Shown: in pieces, positions 47,706 to 57,729 of the stretch
Layout of the letters: every line of letters begins with the position of its first letter
Numbering within the stretch: the first letter of the stretch is position 1
Source: Limibacter armeniacum
GTDB lineage: Bacteria; Bacteroidota; Bacteroidia; Cytophagales; Flammeovirgaceae
Assembly (NCBI RefSeq): GCF_036880985.1
Contig: NZ_JBAJNO010000009.1
Coordinates: forward strand, 1,488,001-1,552,000
Length of the DNA stretch: 64,000 bases
Direction of reading: 5' to 3'
Translations under genes and position numbers: made by a program
Notes under the pieces: generated by a model
What the model was told of the DNA's origin: nothing
Database searches by the model: none
Seen by the model: only the letters and a program-made list of their open reading frames with translations

Positions 47706-49643
47706 ATGAAAAATTTTAAATCATGGTTGCTAGCAACCACCTGCGTTTGCATGTTCTCTTGTGCAGACAATGCTAATGATGATAGTAATGACTTGCTGCG
47801 CACCCAGACTGTAGCTCCAGAACGCTTGGCAGAAAGACGTGCTCAACTTTATGTCACCAACAATGCAGATGGAAATATTACGATCTATGACCTCACCAAT
47901 GAAACATCAAAATCCATAGCTACCTCCTCCACAGCAGCAGAAGGCATCCACTACGATGCAGCTTTAGACCTTGTCACACAAGCGTCACGCTCCAACCTAC
48001 AGCTAGCGTCTTATGCGAATGTAAGCAGTCTGATGGATGGTGATAGCCCTGCCCCAGCCCTTACAAGTTCAGCAGACCTCGAGAGTCCCAGAGAATTGGC
48101 TGTACTTGAAGATAAGTATGTCGTTTCAGACAATGGCTCCAACAAGTTCTTTGTCTATACCAAAAGTGGAGACAATTATAGCTTGACCAATACTTTTGAC
48201 ATTCCTTTCAATGTATGGGGAATTACGTTCAAAGGTACAGACCTATATGCCGTAGTCGACAATTCAAGTGACCTTGCTGTCTTTTATGACTTCTTCTCCA
48301 ATACTACTGACGGACTACTGAGACCATCCAAAAGAGTAACCATCGAAGGTATCATCAGAACACACGGACTGACATACAGTGGCTCCGATGATGTAATGAT
48401 CATGACAGACATCGGAGATGCTGCCAATGCCACTGATGATGGAGGTTTTCACGTTATTCCGAACTTCTCTGAAAAGTTTGATGCTCTTTCTGATGGAGAA
48501 GCACTTTCAGTACTAGACCAGACGCGTGTTGCAGGACCCGCTACCATGCTAGGAAACCCAATTGACGTAGCTTATGATGCCGTTACTGATGCCATCTACA
48601 TATCTGAAATTGGCAACGGCAAAGTAGTTGGCTTCACCAATATTGGGGATGGAGGAAACCTTACCCCAACCTTTATAGCAGACCTTCCTGCTGCTTCCTC
48701 TATACAGTTCTCTAGTGAGGAAACAGATGGTGACATTGGCGAAAGTTCTACCGACTTCCGCTCCGAAATGTTTGTAACAGTCACCTTCAACTCCGATGTC
48801 ACCTACTATGACTTTGTCAACAACCTTTCAAAAAGTATCACAACAGCATCTGCTGCTTCTGAAGGTATCTACTATTCAGGCAGTACTGACGGGATTATTC
48901 AAGCTTCAAGGGCTAATAATCGACTTGAGTTCTATTCACCATTTACCACTGTCAGTGATAGCTCTACAGTCGCACCAAACTTTGTAAGCAATCCTGACTT
49001 GCCAAGTCCTAGAGAGATTGCGGTCTTTGGCAATAAGGTCGTTGTGGCTGATAATGGAAATAACCAATTCTTTGTCTACTCCTATGATGGCACTTCCTTC
49101 AGCTTGACCAACACTTTTGATATTCCTTTCAATGTATGGGGCATCACATTTATGGGAAATGATTTACTTGCCGTAGTGGACAATACCAGCGACTTGGCGG
49201 TATTCCAAAACTTCTTTGCCAATACCATGTCAGGAGCAATCATGCCAGATAAGCAAATCACCATTGAAGGGATTGTCCGTACGCACGGCATTACGTTCAG
49301 TGCTTCTGATGATATCCTGATCATGACAGATATAGGAGCTGCATCCAATACAACCGATGACGGGGGTTTCCACGTAATCTACGATTTCACTTCCAAACTG
49401 GCAGCACTTGAAACAGGTGCTACACTGCCAATGACAGACCAAGTAAGGGTAGCAGGTCCGAAAACAAAATTGGGTAACCCAATTGATGTAGCTTACGACA
49501 ACCGTTCAAAACGTATTTACATCTCTGAAGTTGGGAATGGTAAAGTTCTTGGTTTCAGTGATTATGAAATGGGTGGAGACTTACATCCAAGGTTCACAGA
49601 TACCCAAAAAGCAGCATCTTCGATTTATTTCTATAGTAACTAA
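47706..49643 (+). CDS. Lipoprotein with duplicated beta-propeller-like halves
   Basis: 645 residues. Lipobox MFSCA (Cys19), then two homologous halves (about 45-340 and 352-645). Matching blocks: SLTNTFDIPFNVWGITFKG / SLTNTFDIPFNVWGITFMG, AVVDNSSDLAVFYDFFSNT / AVVDNTSDLAVFQNFFANT, IEGIIRTHGLTYSGSDDVMI / IEGIVRTHGITFSASDDILI, and GNPIDVAYDAVTDAIYISEI / GNPIDVAYDNRSKRIYISEV. The strand-turn pattern with repeated D-x-x-x-D-x-YISEVGNGKV is that of NHL- or lactonase-like propellers. Function unknown; surface or periplasmic. Its own terminator follows. Confidence 0.85.
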   Translation: MKNFKSWLLATTCVCMFSCADNANDDSNDLLRTQTVAPERLAERRAQLYVTNNADGNITIYDLTNETSKSIATSSTAAEGIHYDAALDLVTQASRSNLQLASYANVSSLMDGDSPAPALTSSADLESPRELAVLEDKYVVSDNGSNKFFVYTKSGDNYSLTNTFDIPFNVWGITFKGTDLYAVVDNSSDLAVFYDFFSNTTDGLLRPSKRVTIEGIIRTHGLTYSGSDDVMIMTDIGDAANATDDGGFHVIPNFSEKFDALSDGEALSVLDQTRVAGPATMLGNPIDVAYDAVTDAIYISEIGNGKVVGFTNIGDGGNLTPTFIADLPAASSIQFSSEETDGDIGESSTDFRSEMFVTVTFNSDVTYYDFVNNLSKSITTASAASEGIYYSGSTDGIIQASRANNRLEFYSPFTTVSDSSTVAPNFVSNPDLPSPREIAVFGNKVVVADNGNNQFFVYSYDGTSFSLTNTFDIPFNVWGITFMGNDLLAVVDNTSDLAVFQNFFANTMSGAIMPDKQITIEGIVRTHGITFSASDDILIMTDIGAASNTTDDGGFHVIYDFTSKLAALETGATLPMTDQVRVAGPKTKLGNPIDVAYDNRSKRIYISEVGNGKVLGFSDYEMGGDLHPRFTDTQKAASSIYFYSN

Positions 49644-49783: not shown

Positions 49784-50800
49784 CTATAATGACGGCGGTG
49801 TGTATTTGAATAATAATGGGACCGGATATGCCGGTAAACGATCAAGGGTTTGCAGTCCCTGACCTCCTAATGCAATTTTTTCTGGAAGTGATGGAGAATG
49901 TACTGCTGTCTTGACGGTAAGTCGCTGAGACTTTCTTATTACTAGATTTTGCTCCCGAACACTCCAATGACAGACAGTTGGATTCCCCTCAATATATAAT
50001 GTCAAGCTGTCAGGTATAAGTACATAATCCAAAGTACTATGATTGACCCAACGTGCTGTGATATATAAGCTATCCTGATGATGGTAAACTGCGGCTTTCA
50101 AAAGCAACCCATTGGCTATCAGTTCACATTCTGCCTGACGGACAAAAGGCTTTCTTTGATCATCATACAACTTTTCAAGGTGGTGTATGATCCTTGTCTC
50201 TTTGGCGGTATCCAACTCAGCAAACTGATAGACTGATGGAACTCCCATTGCGTTCCACTCATCTTTGTATGCTGTAAACATTTCCTCATCTGCGTTTGCC
50301 CAAAACTGATAGTCTAAAGGTTGGGCATCCCCTTGTTGCAAGGCAAACTCTAACTGGTAGATGGGTTGTAATGAACCATGAAGCTGGACCTGCTGATAGA
50401 GTTTTAAATCATTAATGGGATTAAAAGTCACCGAAATAACAGAATCGGACTTGGCAGGTAATATAAACCCTGTAAAAGCATGTTCAAGTGATGGTGACCT
50501 CACTCCTTGTCTGGTTATCAGGGATAGCTCTTTCAGCGTAATTACTTTTGCCTCTTCTGTAAGATTTTGCAGCAACAAGTTCAGACTCAAATAACCTGTC
50601 TCTGGGTCAGCCACCATTCTTGGAACTACCCCTACTTCAGAAGTATTATGCTTTTGAGCCTCCAACTGATACGCAATATGAGCTGAAGTTTCCTGAGGAT
50701 CACCTGTATTAGCCTTCTGAAAAGATCCCTGAGACTGACAAGCCACCACCCCTAAACTACATATCAACAACAACTTATAAAGTAGTGTAAATCTATTCAT
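49784..50800 (-). CDS. Lipoprotein of unknown family next to the amylase
   Basis: 338 residues from ATG 50800, which begins the signal peptide MNRFTLLYKLLLICSLGVVAC (lipobox VVAC); an upstream ATG at 50854 would place 18 non-hydrophobic residues first. The body is strand-rich with repeated immunoglobulin-like patterns (VADPETGYLSLNLLLQNLTEEAKVI; ITARWVNHSTLDYVLI; LVIRKSQRLTVKTAVHS). I do not recognise the family. It lies 76 bp after the amylase on the same strand, so it may be part of starch handling, for example as a surface binding protein. Confidence 0.72.
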   Translation of the reverse strand: MNRFTLLYKLLLICSLGVVACQSQGSFQKANTGDPQETSAHIAYQLEAQKHNTSEVGVVPRMVADPETGYLSLNLLLQNLTEEAKVITLKELSLITRQGVRSPSLEHAFTGFILPAKSDSVISVTFNPINDLKLYQQVQLHGSLQPIYQLEFALQQGDAQPLDYQFWANADEEMFTAYKDEWNAMGVPSVYQFAELDTAKETRIIHHLEKLYDDQRKPFVRQAECELIANGLLLKAAVYHHQDSLYITARWVNHSTLDYVLIPDSLTLYIEGNPTVCHWSVREQNLVIRKSQRLTVKTAVHSPSLPEKIALGGQGLQTLDRLPAYPVPLLFKYTPPSL

Positions 50801-50876
50801 ATCATTGTATAAAAAGGCTGCGGGTATATTCACCCACAGCCTCGAAAAACTCAACCGATTAACTATGTATAAATAA

Positions 50877-52310
50877 TTAGTTTACAGGAGACCACACGGT
50901 ATAACCTCTCGGTGGTGCCTGAATTTTCACCCACTGATCACCTTGTGTAGTAGGATACCAACCCGAACTTCCTGTATAATCCTTGATCTGTGTGCTACTC
51001 CAGTTGGTTTGAATCCAACGCTCCTGCCATTGGTCAGAATTGTTGATATACACTACCAAACCAGGATTTCCATTATACCCGTTACGTCTTGCGATGTACT
51101 CATCGTTGTCCACATGCAGGATAGAAGTATTTCCTGTTGCCCTGTTATTATGAATCCAAATCAGGTTGTTAAGCTTACTCTTATCCAACCACTCCTCATA
51201 ATCACGGTAGAATATACACGGATAGCCTTCATGTGTCAGAATGTAGGCATACGAAAGCATCTTGCTCCAGATTTGGTCCGTATCATGGTTAGACACAAAC
51301 GTCACTGTCTTGTATGGGTTGCGCTTCCACATCATATCATCAGCCAAACGGTTCAGGTTATTTCCATCAAATGCCTCATCCATTTTATAGTAACAAGCAA
51401 AGTCAAAAACACTACTATTGGCTTCATTTGCCCACCAGTTCAGGTAGTCCACATTGCTATCCCATAGTTCTCCTACCGAGAAACCTCCTACACTATTGTT
51501 CCACTCCTTTACAACCCAAGGACCAAATCCTTTGACATAGTCGAAGCGCCAGCCATCAAAGCCCATCGTATTTTTATAATACTTTGCCACACCATCACTT
51601 CGGTTCCATAGCCAGTCCTGTACATATGGTACACTGTGAGAAAGGTCAGGAAACCCTCCAAATACACCTTCGTCATTGTTTTGTACCCAGTTAGGGTGGA
51701 AATCATGCTGTGTTCTATTGAACTTCCCAGAGGCTACATTAAACAGGGTCCATGTTTGGGTTCCTGTATACTGGTTATTTTCCAGCTGCCCACCACTGTT
51801 ATGGTTCAATACGATATCCGCATATACTTCCATATTTTCAGTATGTGCTTTACTGATCAGGGAAGTCAATTCTGTTTTGGAACCAAAACGGGTTTCTGTT
51901 GTACCATTCTGGTTATAGTCACCAAAGTCAAAATAATCCGTTGGATCATAACCCATTGAGAAAGGACCATTTTGAGCCTTAGACGCAGGTGGCAGCCATA
52001 GGGCACCAATTCCTGCATTGCCCCAATCAGTTACTTTCCCTTTCACTGTATTCCACCATGTACCTCCTGCTGGCACATCCCAATAGAATGCCTGCATCAT
52101 GACACCACCGCCTGGTCCGGCTGCATATCTTGCATTGGCGTTACTGTTGGTGATAAATGGAGCTCCATCGTGTGTAGTTACTTGTACGACTGCCTGTTTG
52201 TCAGCTTTGTCTGGCACAAAAGTTTCTTCTGTCTCGGTTTGGCAACCAATAAGCGAAAGTCCCATGACAGCGGCTGTCAGTGCTTTCAGCAAGTTTGAGG
52301 ATATTGTCAT
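50877..52310 (-). CDS. Secreted GH13 alpha-amylase lipoprotein
   Basis: 477 residues. Signal peptide with lipobox LIGC (Cys23), a linker, then a GH13 barrel from about residue 68 (GVMMQAFYWDVPAGG, with the GIGALWLPPASKA and GYDPTDYFDFGDYNQ blocks). Catalytic residues: nucleophile Asp257 in GWRFDYVKG, acid/base Glu281 in GELWD and Asp343 in SNHDTDQ. The C-terminal domain ends in APPRGYTVWSPVN. The short-domain pattern is that of plant/archaeal-like alpha-amylases (inference on subfamily). Hydrolyses alpha-1,4-glucan at the cell surface or in the periplasm. Likely controlled by the regulator at 52553, with direct repeats at 52440 and 52508. Confidence 0.94.
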   Translation of the reverse strand: MTISSNLLKALTAAVMGLSLIGCQTETEETFVPDKADKQAVVQVTTHDGAPFITNSNANARYAAGPGGGVMMQAFYWDVPAGGTWWNTVKGKVTDWGNAGIGALWLPPASKAQNGPFSMGYDPTDYFDFGDYNQNGTTETRFGSKTELTSLISKAHTENMEVYADIVLNHNSGGQLENNQYTGTQTWTLFNVASGKFNRTQHDFHPNWVQNNDEGVFGGFPDLSHSVPYVQDWLWNRSDGVAKYYKNTMGFDGWRFDYVKGFGPWVVKEWNNSVGGFSVGELWDSNVDYLNWWANEANSSVFDFACYYKMDEAFDGNNLNRLADDMMWKRNPYKTVTFVSNHDTDQIWSKMLSYAYILTHEGYPCIFYRDYEEWLDKSKLNNLIWIHNNRATGNTSILHVDNDEYIARRNGYNGNPGLVVYINNSDQWQERWIQTNWSSTQIKDYTGSSGWYPTTQGDQWVKIQAPPRGYTVWSPVN

Positions 52311-52439: not shown

Positions 52440-52527
52440 TCATAAAATGACACTCATAAGTAATTAAATTTCAACTAGTTAAGTCGAAAGAAATGAAAGC
52501 TCAAAAATCATAAAATGACACCCATAA
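52440..52527. promoter_or_regulatory. Direct repeats in the amylase upstream region
   Basis: TCATAAAATGACACTCATAA (52440-52459) and the same with one change (52508-52527), 68 bp from start to start. They lie 130-218 bp before the amylase start and next to the end of the regulator gene. AraC-type proteins often bind direct repeats, so these are operator candidates. A partial match, CTCATAAGTCATTTT, lies at 54503-54517 before the regulator gene. Confidence 0.5.
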
Positions 52528-52552
52528 AACGTAGATAAAACACTAATATCCT

Positions 52553-54334
52553 CTAAGAGAAATCTTCTACAGTAGAAAAATAGGCAGATGGTGTTTGTCC
52601 TGTCACTTTTTTAAATGACCTGTTGAACGTACTCTTTGACTTAAAACCTACTTCCAATGCCAAAGCCAATAATGTCTTATGCTCCGCTTCTCCTGCATCT
52701 ACTTTTTGGATAAAGGCTTTCACTCTAAATTCATTCACAAAATCTGGGAAGCTCTTACTAAAACCCTGATTAATTACCTTGGACATTTTATGGGTTGACA
52801 TGTCCAATGCCTCCGCCAGATCTGCCAAGCAAAAAGATGGATTGTCATACAAGTTATTTGCCTCCATCAAAGTCATCACTTGTGCAGTAATGGCTTCATA
52901 TTCCAGTTCCATAGTTTCAACTACTTCCTCTTCTAAAACGGAATTAACCTTATGCTGTAAAGACAGGTTCTCACCCTGCCCAGTTGTTCCATTTCTAGTC
53001 GTATAAAGTACAAAAGCTATATACAGTGTATAGAGAGAAATCAAAACCCAATACAAGTCATCAAACCACTCTACCCAAAACATTCCCAACCCTCGAAATA
53101 CAAGCTCTAACAACAAAATGACTGTACAGCACCCAAGCAGTACTCCAGTACCTTTCAGTACCTTTTGCATACCTTGGGTTTTAGGCACCTTTCCAATAAC
53201 CATCCATGTAAAAGTTACGGCTACACACCTGCCCCCCAATATCAGCCAACCAACCCGCTGGTTTACATATTCAGCTTTTATAGCTTCAGCATTGTAATAA
53301 AAAATGAAAAGCACAGGAATTAGCATTCCGACGAATGTCAAGCCCTGCCTATATTTTCGGTTGGATACTAACGGAAAAGAATACCCGACAAAGGAAAGTA
53401 TTAAACCTCCTTGAAGAATCAGGCTATATTCAGCCAATAGGTTACCCCACGGAAACAGGTGAAACACATGCTTGTTCATAAAGATCGCTTTCAGCAACAA
53501 AGTACCTCCATACCAAGCCAGCAAACTCACCATGCCTTTCTCATAGCGTTCGCTTCCATCTAGCATGACAAACAGTACCATAACCAATGCATGTACTCCT
53601 ACAAAAAGCAGGAGAAGCAATAAAGGAGAGATACCATACCCATTGAAATCCTCCCAAGAAGCAATTTGAATTGCTATAGTCTCAGGCATTTTTGAACTTT
53701 TGGCATAGTAACGGTTCGCACGACTGATCCCAAAGACCTGTCCTTCAACCGTCTCCCAACTCCCTCTTGTGAACTTGTAATAAAAAGTATCTGCATCAGC
53801 AGGCAATGTAACGCTATAGGTTCCATTCTCATCCAAGCGCATCTGATACAGGCTATCAGCAGGATTCCAATCATTGAATGATCCTGATATAAAAACCTTG
53901 GCAGGCTCAGGCGTATAAGCAGGCAAATGCTTAAGCTTGAAAGTTACCTGCGCAGCCAAATCCTCCCAGCTCTGAACTGATGCTACAATTACTGTATCCG
54001 TTACTGAGGAGGGTAGAATACAGGTCCTATTAGCCAAAGGCTTTCCATCCCAAGTCCCTTCTACATACTCCCAATTCCCTCGTGTAAACTTGAATTCAAA
54101 AGCTTTCAAGCTATCAGGCATCGTCACCTCTAAAATGCCTTCCTTATTTGGTTTTAATGCATAATTCGGATCATTAGCTAACCAATCATTAAAACTTCCA
54201 GAGATAAAAACAGTATCTGTAATTGGGGTATGTTGCGGCAATCTGATTACTTGAATCGTTGTTTGACCTGATACATAAAATGACCAGCATGTAAACAACA
54301 GAACAGCTATTGATCTCAATATATTAGCTATCAT
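52553..54334 (-). CDS. Membrane-bound AraC-type regulator with two starch-binding-like domains
   Basis: 593 residues. Signal peptide (1-23); two homologous carbohydrate-binding E-set/CBM20- or CBM48-like domains (about 25-115 and 125-225), each with VFISGSFNDW and FTRGxWExVEG; seven or so membrane spans (about 232-455); a cytoplasmic linker; and a C-terminal AraC HTH domain (about 485-593; LADLAEALDMSTHKMSKVIN, LALEVGFKSKSTFNRSFKKVTGQTPSAYF). This would let one protein bind extracytoplasmic starch fragments and control transcription. It lies just upstream of the amylase on the same strand, with 242 bp between them. Each domain is well seen; the function is inference. Confidence 0.9.
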   Translation of the reverse strand: MIANILRSIAVLLFTCWSFYVSGQTTIQVIRLPQHTPITDTVFISGSFNDWLANDPNYALKPNKEGILEVTMPDSLKAFEFKFTRGNWEYVEGTWDGKPLANRTCILPSSVTDTVIVASVQSWEDLAAQVTFKLKHLPAYTPEPAKVFISGSFNDWNPADSLYQMRLDENGTYSVTLPADADTFYYKFTRGSWETVEGQVFGISRANRYYAKSSKMPETIAIQIASWEDFNGYGISPLLLLLLFVGVHALVMVLFVMLDGSERYEKGMVSLLAWYGGTLLLKAIFMNKHVFHLFPWGNLLAEYSLILQGGLILSFVGYSFPLVSNRKYRQGLTFVGMLIPVLFIFYYNAEAIKAEYVNQRVGWLILGGRCVAVTFTWMVIGKVPKTQGMQKVLKGTGVLLGCCTVILLLELVFRGLGMFWVEWFDDLYWVLISLYTLYIAFVLYTTRNGTTGQGENLSLQHKVNSVLEEEVVETMELEYEAITAQVMTLMEANNLYDNPSFCLADLAEALDMSTHKMSKVINQGFSKSFPDFVNEFRVKAFIQKVDAGEAEHKTLLALALEVGFKSKSTFNRSFKKVTGQTPSAYFSTVEDFS

Positions 54335-54687: not shown

Positions 54688-54695
54688 CGATATAT

Positions 54696-54775
54696 GCTTT
54701 AGGGGTGTTCCGTTTAAGGAACTGAGAAATACCCTTTGAACCTGATACAGCTGGCACTGTCGTAGGGAAAAGCTA
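54696..54775 (+). promoter_or_regulatory. TPP riboswitch (THI element)
   Basis: The aptamer core is complete: GGGGTGTTC, CTGAGAAATACCC, the thi-box core GAACCTGATACAG, a variable hairpin, and CGTAGGGAAAAGC. P1 pairs GCTTT (54696-54700) with AAAGC (54769-54773). It binds thiamin pyrophosphate and controls the thiM-thiE-thiD-tenA operon 92 bp downstream. A 14-nt segment (54698-54711) that spans P1 and the following strand can also pair with 54807-54820, an alternative helix for the expression platform. Confidence 0.96.
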
Positions 54776-54866
54776 GGCATCTCTCTCCTATTTCAATTAT
54801 AGCAGCGGAGTACCCCTGAAGTATACCTTGACAAGATTCATTCACCATGCAATTTGATAAAAGGAT

Positions 54867-55670
54867 ATGCTACAACAACTCTGGGAAACTGTAAAGGCTG
54901 TAAAGGAACAAGCTCCTCTCGTACATAATATCACCAACTATGTAGTCATGAATAACTCTGCCAATGCACTGCTAGCACTTGGAGCATCCCCTGTTATGGC
55001 TCATGCACTGGAAGAAGTTGAAGATATGGCTGGCATTGCAGGAAGTCTTGTCATCAATATCGGCACATTAGAGCCTCAATGGGTAGAAGCCATGAAAAAG
55101 GCAATGATTACAGCCAAAAGGAAAGGGACTCCTATCGTCATTGACCCAGTTGGACTAGGCGCTACCCCTTACCGCAACGAAGCATTTGCCTCACTTATAG
55201 ATACTGTTAAGCCTACTGTCATCCGTGGAAATGGGAGTGAGATCATGGCTGCCCTAAGTACTGCCTCAGCTACCAAGGGAGTTGACAGTACCATATCGGC
55301 ACAAGCTGCTACTGATGCTGCAACGGAACTGGCAGGTATAACCAATGGGACTGTTTGTATCTCAGGGGAAGAGGATTGGATCATCACTTCCACTACTAAG
55401 GCAAAAGTGCTAAACAACATTCCGCTTTATACCAAAGTTACAGGAATGGGCTGTACCGCTACAGCACTAACTGGAGCTTGTTTGGCGGTTACTTCAGACC
55501 CATTCATGGCTACATTAGCAGCAATGGCGACAATGGGAGTAGTTGGTGAGGTTGCCATGCAAAAGGCACAAGGTCCGGGTACACTACAACTGTACTTTTT
55601 AGATGCGCTTTATAATCTCAATGAAGATACCTTTATGGATAAAGCTAAAATTGAAGTCATTCATGAATAA
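54867..55670 (+). CDS. thiM: Hydroxyethylthiazole kinase ThiM
   Basis: Phosphorylates the salvaged thiazole moiety of thiamin (ribokinase-like fold, cytoplasmic). Hallmarks are VHNITNYVVMNNSANALLALGASP at the start (HNITN-N type active site), PIVIDPVGLGATPYRN, IRGNGSEI, and the anion-hole motif VTGMGCTATALTGA with the catalytic Cys region. At 267 residues it has the family length. It is the first gene after the TPP riboswitch, and its stop overlaps thiE. Confidence 0.97.
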   Translation: MLQQLWETVKAVKEQAPLVHNITNYVVMNNSANALLALGASPVMAHALEEVEDMAGIAGSLVINIGTLEPQWVEAMKKAMITAKRKGTPIVIDPVGLGATPYRNEAFASLIDTVKPTVIRGNGSEIMAALSTASATKGVDSTISAQAATDAATELAGITNGTVCISGEEDWIITSTTKAKVLNNIPLYTKVTGMGCTATALTGACLAVTSDPFMATLAAMATMGVVGEVAMQKAQGPGTLQLYFLDALYNLNEDTFMDKAKIEVIHE

Positions 55671-56289
55671 GTTATATCTGGTCACAAGTGAGTCTGATTG
55701 CCGACACCATTCTCTAGCATCCGTCATTCAAATGGCTGCTGAAGGAGGGGTTGGAATGGTTCAGCTCAGAGAAAAAAATGCCAGTACACGTGAGTTTATA
55801 CAAAAAGGCTTACTACTGAAAACACTACTGAAGCCCTTTAACATTCCATTGATTATCAATGATAGAGTAGATGTAGCCTTAGCAGTTGAAGCAGAAGGCG
55901 TACACCTTGGACAAAGTGACATGCCGGTAGAAAGTGCACGAAGACTCCTACCTCCAAATAGTATTGTCGGCTTATCTGTTGAGTCACTGGAGGAAGTAAA
56001 GGAAGCAGAGAATTTACCTGTAGACTATCTGGGTGTAAGTCCAGTATTTGGCACACAAACCAAAACAGACACAAAAATAGAATGGGGACTGGATGGATTA
56101 CAACACATCCGACAAATCTCCAAGCATAGACTCGTTGCCATCGGGGGGATTAGTATTACCAATGCGGAAGAAGTTCTGAAAGCAGGTGCAGATGATCTCG
56201 CTTTGGTTTCTGCAATATGTGGTGTTCCAGATCCTAAACTGGCAACTGCCGAATTCATTAAAATCATTAAAGAATATGCAATATCATAA
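55663..56289 (+). CDS. thiE: Thiamin phosphate synthase ThiE
   Basis: Joins HMP-pyrophosphate and thiazole phosphate to thiamin phosphate (TIM barrel). Start at ATG 55663, overlapping the thiM stop by 8 bp; an earlier in-frame ATG lies inside thiM. Motifs: MVQLREKNAS, LIINDRVDVALAVEAEGVHL, GQSDMP, GLSVES, YLGVSPVFGTQTKTD, and AIGGIS for phosphate binding. It has 208 residues, normal length. Translational coupling to thiM and thiD is implied by the overlaps. Confidence 0.96.
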   Translation: MNKLYLVTSESDCRHHSLASVIQMAAEGGVGMVQLREKNASTREFIQKGLLLKTLLKPFNIPLIINDRVDVALAVEAEGVHLGQSDMPVESARRLLPPNSIVGLSVESLEEVKEAENLPVDYLGVSPVFGTQTKTDTKIEWGLDGLQHIRQISKHRLVAIGGISITNAEEVLKAGADDLALVSAICGVPDPKLATAEFIKIIKEYAIS

Positions 56290-57082
56290 AGCACTTACCA
56301 TAGCCGGTTCTGATAGCGGTGGTGGGGCTGGCATTCAAGCAGACTTAAAGACATTTGCAGCATTAGGCTGCCATGGCAGTTCTGCTATTACAGCCGTCAC
56401 GGCTCAAAACACTTTAGGAGTAACTGCCATACACCCTATTCCGACTGACATTGTAGAGGCACAAATCGCTGCTGTATTTGAAGACATGGGTGCTAAAGCA
56501 GTCAAAATTGGCATGCTTCACTCACCTGAAATTATCGAATCTGTCGCAAGACAACTCCGTAAATATCAGCCTGAGTTTATTGTGGTGGATCCAGTAATGG
56601 TAGCTACAAGTGGAGACAGGCTAATTCAGGAAGAGGCGGTGGATGCCCTAAAGGAATATCTTTTCCCTTTGGCTACAGTGATTACGCCAAACCTGCCCGA
56701 AGCTTCTTTACTTCTGGGACATCAGGTGGATGAGGGACACATGCTCAAAGAGGCTCAGGAGTTACTCCAGTGGGGTAGTGATTCTGTACTCTTAAAGGGT
56801 GGTCATATGTCGGGAATGATTCGTGACACATGGGTTGCTCGTGGGTATACACCTTTGGTTATCTCTCACGAAAAAGTCGACACCCCAAACACACACGGTA
56901 CCGGATGTACACTCAGCAGTGCCATTACAGCTTTACTAGCTCGGGGAATTGTATTGGAAAATGCGATCGAGAAAGCAATTGACTATGTAAAGATGACAAT
57001 CATGGCAGGCAGCAATCTGCACTTAGGTAAAGGAAGCGGTCCTGTTCATCACTTTTTTCACTACTGGAAAAACAAAAAATGA
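56276..57082 (+). CDS. thiD: Hydroxymethylpyrimidine kinase/phosphomethylpyrimidine kinase ThiD
   Basis: Carries out the two phosphorylations of HMP. Start at ATG 56276, which overlaps the thiE end by 14 bp. Motifs: ALTIAGSDSGGGAGIQADLK, ALGCHGSSAITAVTAQNT, the loop MVATSGDRLI, ITPNLPEASLLLG, VLLKGGH and the anion-hole motif NTHGTGCTLSSAI with the catalytic Cys. It has 268 residues. Together with ThiM, ThiE and TenA it forms a salvage route, while no thiC or thiG is seen here. Confidence 0.96.
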   Translation: MQYHKALTIAGSDSGGGAGIQADLKTFAALGCHGSSAITAVTAQNTLGVTAIHPIPTDIVEAQIAAVFEDMGAKAVKIGMLHSPEIIESVARQLRKYQPEFIVVDPVMVATSGDRLIQEEAVDALKEYLFPLATVITPNLPEASLLLGHQVDEGHMLKEAQELLQWGSDSVLLKGGHMSGMIRDTWVARGYTPLVISHEKVDTPNTHGTGCTLSSAITALLARGIVLENAIEKAIDYVKMTIMAGSNLHLGKGSGPVHHFFHYWKNKK

Positions 57083-57729
57083 AATTCACACAAACACTTT
57101 GGGAAGAAAATACTGCGACCTATGAACAGATTGTCGCGCTTCCATTCAATCAGGAGTTAACCAATGGTACATTGGATACCAATAAATTCAAGTTTTATGT
57201 CAACCAGGACGCTCACTACTTAGCAGAATACGGTCGAGCACTTTCTATAATGGCAGCCAAATCTCCTGACACGAAACTGGTATTGGATTTTATCAAGTTT
57301 GCTGAAGGAGCTATTGTTACAGAACAGCTATTGCATGGCAGCTACTTTGAGCAATTTGATTTTGAACTTTCAGGGAGTAAATCCCCTACTTGTCTGAATT
57401 ACACCAATTTTCTGTTAGCAACCTGCTCTCTGAAGAGTCTAGAAGAAGGCATGGCTGCTTTACTTCCTTGCTTCTGGATTTACAGAGAAGTTGGTCTCCA
57501 TATTTTAGGAAATACAGCAAAAGACAATCCGTTTCAAGCTTGGATTGACACCTACTCAGGTGAAGAATTTGCGGATGCTGTTGAAAAAGCCATTGCCATA
57601 ACCGACAAACTGGCAGAAGAAGCTTCTCCAACTTTAAGAGCCAAAATGAAAGAAGCCTTTACCATGTCTTGCAAAATGGAGTACCTCTTCTGGGAAAGTG
57701 CATACAGACAAGAAGCTTGGGTTATATAA
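57079..57729 (+). CDS. tenA: Thiaminase II (aminopyrimidine aminohydrolase) TenA
   Basis: Cleaves thiamin degradation products such as formylaminopyrimidine to give HMP for salvage. An all-helical protein of 216 residues; its start overlaps the thiD stop (ATGA). The nucleophile is Cys131 in ALLPCFWIYREVG. The tyrosines and acid of the active site are in KFKFYVNQDAHYLAEYGRAL and SCKMEYLFWESAY, the latter with the catalytic Glu region. Last gene of the TPP-riboswitch operon. Confidence 0.95.
   Translation: MKFTQTLWEENTATYEQIVALPFNQELTNGTLDTNKFKFYVNQDAHYLAEYGRALSIMAAKSPDTKLVLDFIKFAEGAIVTEQLLHGSYFEQFDFELSGSKSPTCLNYTNFLLATCSLKSLEEGMAALLPCFWIYREVGLHILGNTAKDNPFQAWIDTYSGEEFADAVEKAIAITDKLAEEASPTLRAKMKEAFTMSCKMEYLFWESAYRQEAWVI

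Follow-up and report, generated by a model that had tools for sequence, protein, structure and literature searches.

The locus examined here, in a window of 64,000 nucleotides from the Limibacter armeniacum genome, raises the question of how a GH13 alpha-amylase gene could be controlled by the membrane protein encoded beside it. We consider it likely that this protein alone, embedded in the membrane, senses periplasmic alpha-glucan oligosaccharides and activates the transcription of genes for starch use, as a one-component system.

The regulator gene (52553..54334, minus strand) encodes a 593-aa protein composed of a signal-like segment, two modules, seven hydrophobic segments and an AraC HTH. 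The signal-like N-terminal segment covers residues 1-25 (54260..54334, minus strand), with hydropathy peaks at 5-23 and 7-25. Module 1 (residues ~28-126; 53957..54253, minus strand) is a repeat of module 2 (residues ~128-230; 53645..53953, minus strand). The seven hydrophobic segments occupy residues 239-444 (53003..53620, minus strand); like the signal-like segment, placed at 5-25, they emerge from hydropathy averaged over the family. A linker separates the seventh segment from the AraC-type HTH_18 domain at residues 506-586 (52577..52819, minus strand), which scores 48.4 bits in Pfam against a cut-off of 33.6 and is thus assigned to the AraC family. Having membrane segments and a DNA-binding domain in a single chain, the protein has the layout of a transmembrane transcriptional regulator; a Pfam search up to E 0.1 found no histidine kinase or receiver domain in it. 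Because a signal segment is combined with an odd number of membrane segments, a periplasmic location is predicted for the modules and a cytoplasmic one for the HTH. The order of modules, membrane domain and AraC HTH proposed by the sequence-only reading is borne out by translation, Pfam and hydropathy, as are, by translation of the ORF, its two copies of VFISGSFNDW, one in each repeat together with a K.TRG.W..VE...NR stretch. The gene start that it placed at 52440 proved wrong, as this position lies outside the ORF and belongs to the first copy, in coordinate order, of a 20-bp direct repeat.

Module 2 alone matches Pfam families, and does so below threshold (AMPK1_CBM, 24.4 bits, cut-off 26.8; CBM_48, 21.0 bits, cut-off 22.4); module 1, which is 42% identical to module 2 in an alignment, has no Pfam match of its own. 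Since these scores are under the curated cut-offs, we refer to the modules as CBM20/48-like. A relative consisting of modules only (L074) exceeds the Pfam cut-off, with 41.8 for AMPK1_CBM. The structure model of both modules together had a mean pLDDT of 54, and a model of module 2 alone (pLDDT 88.9) was used instead. This model has the beta-sandwich fold of solved starch-binding domains, an assignment that applies to module 2 only. Its top solved matches are the CBM20 of STBD1 with maltotetraose, the starch-binding domains of CGTase and beta-amylase, and the CBM48 of AMPK beta; a pollen allergen and the CBM48 of feruloyl esterases were matched too. Foldseek gave an E-value of 6.9e-4 for the STBD1 CBM20, and only two matches had E <= 0.001. 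The VIA comparison reached a Z of 9.2 (2.8 A over 88 residues), which is above, although not far above, the 7-8 typical of models without a clear match.

Residues W156, K187, W193 and N207 of module 2, which by correspondence to AMPK beta we take to be the sugar-site residues, are conserved in 62, 62, 61 and 62 of 62 relatives, respectively, and W51 of module 1 is present in 48/48 of the relatives that possess this module. The earlier suggestion of starch-binding-like N-terminal repeats thus gains support from the fold search and the conserved site residues, with Pfam scores staying below the cut-offs; a match to non-carbohydrate domains had been named as the finding that would speak against it, and the best solved matches of module 2 are starch-binding domains. 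From sequence and model we infer that the modules bind alpha-1,4-glucan oligosaccharides.

Modules of the same type also precede putative esterases with T9SS tails (L080, L081, L082), so the module is common to enzymes and regulators. Two further proteins are encoded in the window's genome. One, of 346 aa, contains several CBM20/48-like modules but gave no HTH match (L085, 8278-9318; G000:C8:1996304); in the other, of 1622 aa, a region resembling the regulator's module occurs together with leucine-rich repeats, a CUB stretch and a T9SS tail (L086, 6468-11336; G000:C9:1007741).

To describe the distribution of the architecture, a profile built from 18 relatives was searched in 390 genomes of the window's order. 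The span from module(s) to HTH was found in at least 62 proteins from at least 54 genomes, a lower bound given that three candidates were scored per genome from a best-first list. Twenty of these proteins belong to the window's family and 42 are found elsewhere in the order, 14 of the latter with one module. The survey of other genomes that had been proposed earlier therefore shows an architecture that recurs more than by chance. Among the matches listed for 395 genomes sampled from the phylum, the module-to-HTH span occurs only in members of the window's order, and the other matches covering the HTH are without modules and mostly 7TM-AraC proteins. The family tree carries a warning, as it contains long branches that meet, the window's branch among them.

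In the window, the regulator is followed by the presumed target, a GH13 alpha-amylase gene with a lipoprotein-like signal (50877..52310, minus strand; NCBIfam PRK09441.1-3, 622 bits, cut-off 516), and by the third gene of the conserved cluster, which encodes a 356-aa lipoprotein (49784..50854, minus strand). The sequence-only reading had described the adjoining enzyme as a secreted GH13 amylase; the GH13 assignment holds, but its N-terminus, read by eye, carries the lipoprotein signal LIGC, so 'lipoprotein' is the better term. Family-model searches gave no family above cut-off for the 356-aa lipoprotein, which may be the starch cluster's component at the cell surface. The plus strand at 47706-49643 encodes a 645-aa protein with a lipoprotein-like start and two halves that look duplicated when read by eye.

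The same GH13 alpha-amylase lies directly downstream of the regulator in 8/8 loci of clade A (the window and seven orthologous loci), and a homologue of the 356-aa lipoprotein comes after the amylase, again in 8/8. In clade B, the second group in the window's family (10 loci), a GH13 protein of ~2000 aa is encoded directly upstream of the regulator in 6/10; the one checked by Pfam also contains CBM26 and a T9SS tail. Two further relatives have arrangements of their own: in G004 the regulator precedes a 1078-aa GH13 protein, and in G001 it is divergent from a susC-susD-susE operon behind which there is a GH13 gene, located just beyond the fetched stretch and left out of the 40 counted below. 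The usual order outside the window's family is regulator, susC, susD, susE and often GH13.

As controls we used 39 module-less 7TM-AraC proteins, the top of the same best-first match list that gave the 62. A GH13 gene is adjacent to 30/62 regulators and lies within the fetched stretch of 40/62, versus 0/39 controls in both cases, and SusC is at most three genes away from 31/62 regulators versus 0/39 controls (SusC is four or five genes away in 3/39). The stretches were at most 20 kb long in the window's family and at most 17 kb at all other loci, controls included, with some cut short by contig ends, and GH13, SusC, GH53 and SusE were called with local HMMs seeded from the loci, with a Pfam check on samples. 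Five of the 62 regulators (L188, L205, L206, L207, L208) have a GH53 galactanase and SusC beside them, hence starch is probably not the ligand of every member. GH13, SusC and GH53 are all absent from the fetched stretch in 7/62 (L068, L069, L070, L072, L201, L216, L218), and two of these seven stretches are short; the first four belong to clade-B regulators whose GH13 partner is elsewhere in the genome (L261-L264). Judged by the neighbour-gene pattern of the 62 loci, these proteins seem to regulate glycan loci, in most cases those for starch.

The comparison with the controls bears on a different account of the protein, in which the modules bind a glycan other than starch fragments or only anchor the protein, and what the seven-segment domain reads is a small molecule or the state of the membrane. 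Such an account would suit the module-less 7TM-AraC proteins, which are common in the phylum sample and in which the seven-segment domain must read the signal, and it would accommodate both the CBM48 feruloyl esterases among the fold matches of module 2 and the existence of GH53-linked members. However, the modules have been retained with nearly invariant site residues and the GH13 tie is missing in 39/39 module-less controls; the modules thus go with the target, and we regard this account as unlikely.

The reading of the protein as a starch-responsive activator of its neighbours was further considered at the DNA level. Between the regulator and the amylase lies a 20-bp direct repeat, a candidate operator whose copies (no strand assigned) are located at 52508..52527 (copy 1, regulator-proximal) and 52440..52459 (copy 2, amylase-proximal), 68 bp apart. 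Within 2 mismatches, it is found nowhere else in the 8.04 Mb genome. A GTNYCA pair at exactly 68 bp is present in 8/8 orthologous clade-A intergenic regions, compared with 0 or 1 of 500 shuffles of each region. When the window is compared with the other genus, the hexamers of this pair agree at 10-12 of 12 bases and the rest of the frame at 28-36 of 76. A site upstream of the non-orthologous GH13 gene of G004 (L061) matches the window's at 18/20 positions (0/1000 shuffles) and is without the 68-bp pair. The 20-mer was rejected as an operator of the whole family, its best match upstream of clade-A regulators having 7-9 mismatches and its best match in the clade-B, G001 and G029 regions being a 4-mismatch site in L064. 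No convincing operator site was found near the G001 regulator. Matches with 3 mismatches in the window's genome are as many as in the reversed control, so no wider regulon is claimed there, and the sigma-70 and terminator scans gave no more matches than shuffles.

Outside the window's family, the motif A(C/G)TGGNRCG is present in 23/28 regulator-to-target intergenic regions (shuffle mean 0.14, maximum 2), most of which belong to one family with common descent. It is missing from the other five of the 28 regions and from all module-less controls (0/39). Because the motifs were picked after the sequences had been seen, the shuffles overstate the surprise. In the intergenic regions of the window's family AGTGGNRCG is found in 0/9, the window's own motif being of another type, and behind the GH53-linked regulators it is found in 3/5. 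In the 14 regions with both AGTGGNRCG and TAnnTTTG, the latter presumably the Bacteroidota -7 box, the site starts 29-30 bp before this box. The composite operator-promoter pattern has exactly one match, just behind the regulator, in each of 12/12 chosen genomes, and the reversed pattern has two matches in all over the same genomes; as these were chosen for the composite at that exact spacing, its presence is by construction and only the missing further matches count.

A paired operator, GTRCCRN10TGGNACGT, characterizes clade B, where it occurs in the promoters of 9/10 GH13 genes. It is kept in 4/4 of the GH13 genes located away from their regulator. In a more even-handed test, scanning 12 whole genomes of the window's family with this pattern yielded 12 matches in 10 genomes, of which 9 are at these same GH13 promoters, 1 is inside an ORF of G004, and 2 lie upstream of a further GH13 gene, at ~146 and 149 bp, although the pattern had been derived without it; this whole-genome scan gave no match in the window's genome or in G001.

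It could be argued that the conserved intergenic repeats serve a different regulator of starch genes, not linked to them, and that the protein encoded at 52553-54334 acts elsewhere: the protein-DNA contact is a predicted one, and linkage is not needed, since the clade-B operator persists at four GH13 genes that are remote from the regulator. This is very improbable in view of the sole composite match directly behind the regulator in 12/12 chosen genomes and of the repeated sites, which suit an AraC HTH. The tie of the regulator to the amylase claimed by the earlier reading is thus upheld by the gene neighbourhood, as compared with the controls, and by operator conservation.

On the other side of the regulator, and divergent from it, is a thiM-thiE-thiD-tenA cluster (54691-57729, plus strand) preceded by a TPP riboswitch (Rfam RF00059, 72.8 bits). 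That the amylase is an incidental neighbour and the regulator serves these divergent genes, thiM being the nearest, or something else is hardly credible, and a thiamine role was rejected, because the thiamine operon has its own riboswitch and the divergent neighbour varies in relatives while GH13 stays.

Starting from the observed sequence, module fold, conserved residues, linkage, and sites with their spacing, we propose how the ligand, its signal and the DNA may be connected in a one-component activator. The modules behind the signal segment would bind alpha-1,4-glucan oligosaccharides arriving in the periplasm, with maltooligosaccharides held by the W/K/W/N sites. Ligand binding may rearrange the seven-segment domain, for instance by altering how it dimerises, and this transfer through the membrane would bring the cytoplasmic AraC domains onto the repeated sites between the regulator and the target gene, which would be the two sites 68 bp apart in the window and A(C/G)TGGNRCG at 29-30 bp before the TAnnTTTG box in other families. 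Contact with these sites would turn on the operon of amylase and lipoprotein, or the susC-susD-susE-GH13 locus where other genera are concerned. It can further be speculated, with even chances in our estimation, that one-protein receptors with a seven-helix core and an AraC domain are phylum-wide, and that one order added starch-binding modules to such a receptor, which became a starch-locus switch operating via CBMs and not via a kinase relay or SusR, with an operator that in many cases occurs once per genome, and on one or more occasions shifted to galactan.

The regulator is probably a direct switch for starch use, and a candidate not previously described: in the literature, judged mainly by titles and abstract openings, we found no description of the architecture, its tie to starch loci across the order, or the operator. 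If the proposal is true, a transcription factor uses carbohydrate-binding modules of the enzyme type as its sensor, and another kind of glycan-locus regulator is added for starch throughout an order. It would also give a starting point for finding the input of the numerous 7TM-AraC proteins that have no modules, and it supplies exact operator-promoter predictions.

Among the systems available for comparison, these module-less 7TM-AraC proteins of the phylum share the membrane and AraC halves of the regulator, which align over ~370 model positions, but they are without extracytoplasmic modules and have a GH13 gene in the stretch of 0/39. TfoS of Vibrio cholerae has an AraC-type domain. TfoS and ChiS of this species are anchored in the membrane, make direct contact with DNA and respond to oligosaccharides derived from the polysaccharide chitin; activation of ChiS runs via a binding protein, and direct chitin sensing by TfoS is unclear (PMC11856585). 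Membrane anchoring, direct DNA binding and an oligosaccharide response are predicted for our regulator as well, whereas the Vibrio proteins respond to chitin (PMC11856585).

The glycan-locus regulators named for Bacteroides are SusR-like proteins, hybrid two-component systems (HTCS) and ECF sigma/anti-sigma pairs (PMC3878776). The HTCS resemble the regulator in combining a periplasmic carbohydrate sensor with an AraC-type output in one chain; they differ in that the regulator is without a kinase or receiver domain and in site spacing, 68 bp versus an HTCS average of 21 bp (PMC3878776).

SusR (BT3705) is described in the same source as a single protein of the membrane whose sensor is periplasmic and whose DNA-binding domain is cytoplasmic (PMC3878776), a layout that is predicted for our regulator too, as is the control of starch genes. 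One-protein membrane regulators of glycan responses are therefore already known, from SusR (PMC3878776) as from ChiS and TfoS (PMC11856585), and sensing starch with a single protein is not a new concept. Of the earlier claim that the protein bypasses both hybrid two-component and SusR-type sensors, the difference in architecture and the lack of kinase and receiver domains stand, and being a single protein does not distinguish it from SusR. The DNA-binding domain of SusR reportedly does not show significant similarity to that of any other known factor, whereas that of the regulator is a clear AraC HTH_18, and the regulator is set apart, as far as the accessible description goes, by predicted starch-binding modules and seven membrane segments that are not mentioned for SusR (PMC3878776). 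For SusR-like regulators, tandem sites with a spacing of 67 or 77 bp are predicted (PMC3878776); the long-spaced tandem sites of clade A, at 68 bp in 8/8 regions and with other families differing, are a suggestive analogy and may indicate a parallel in the way of working.
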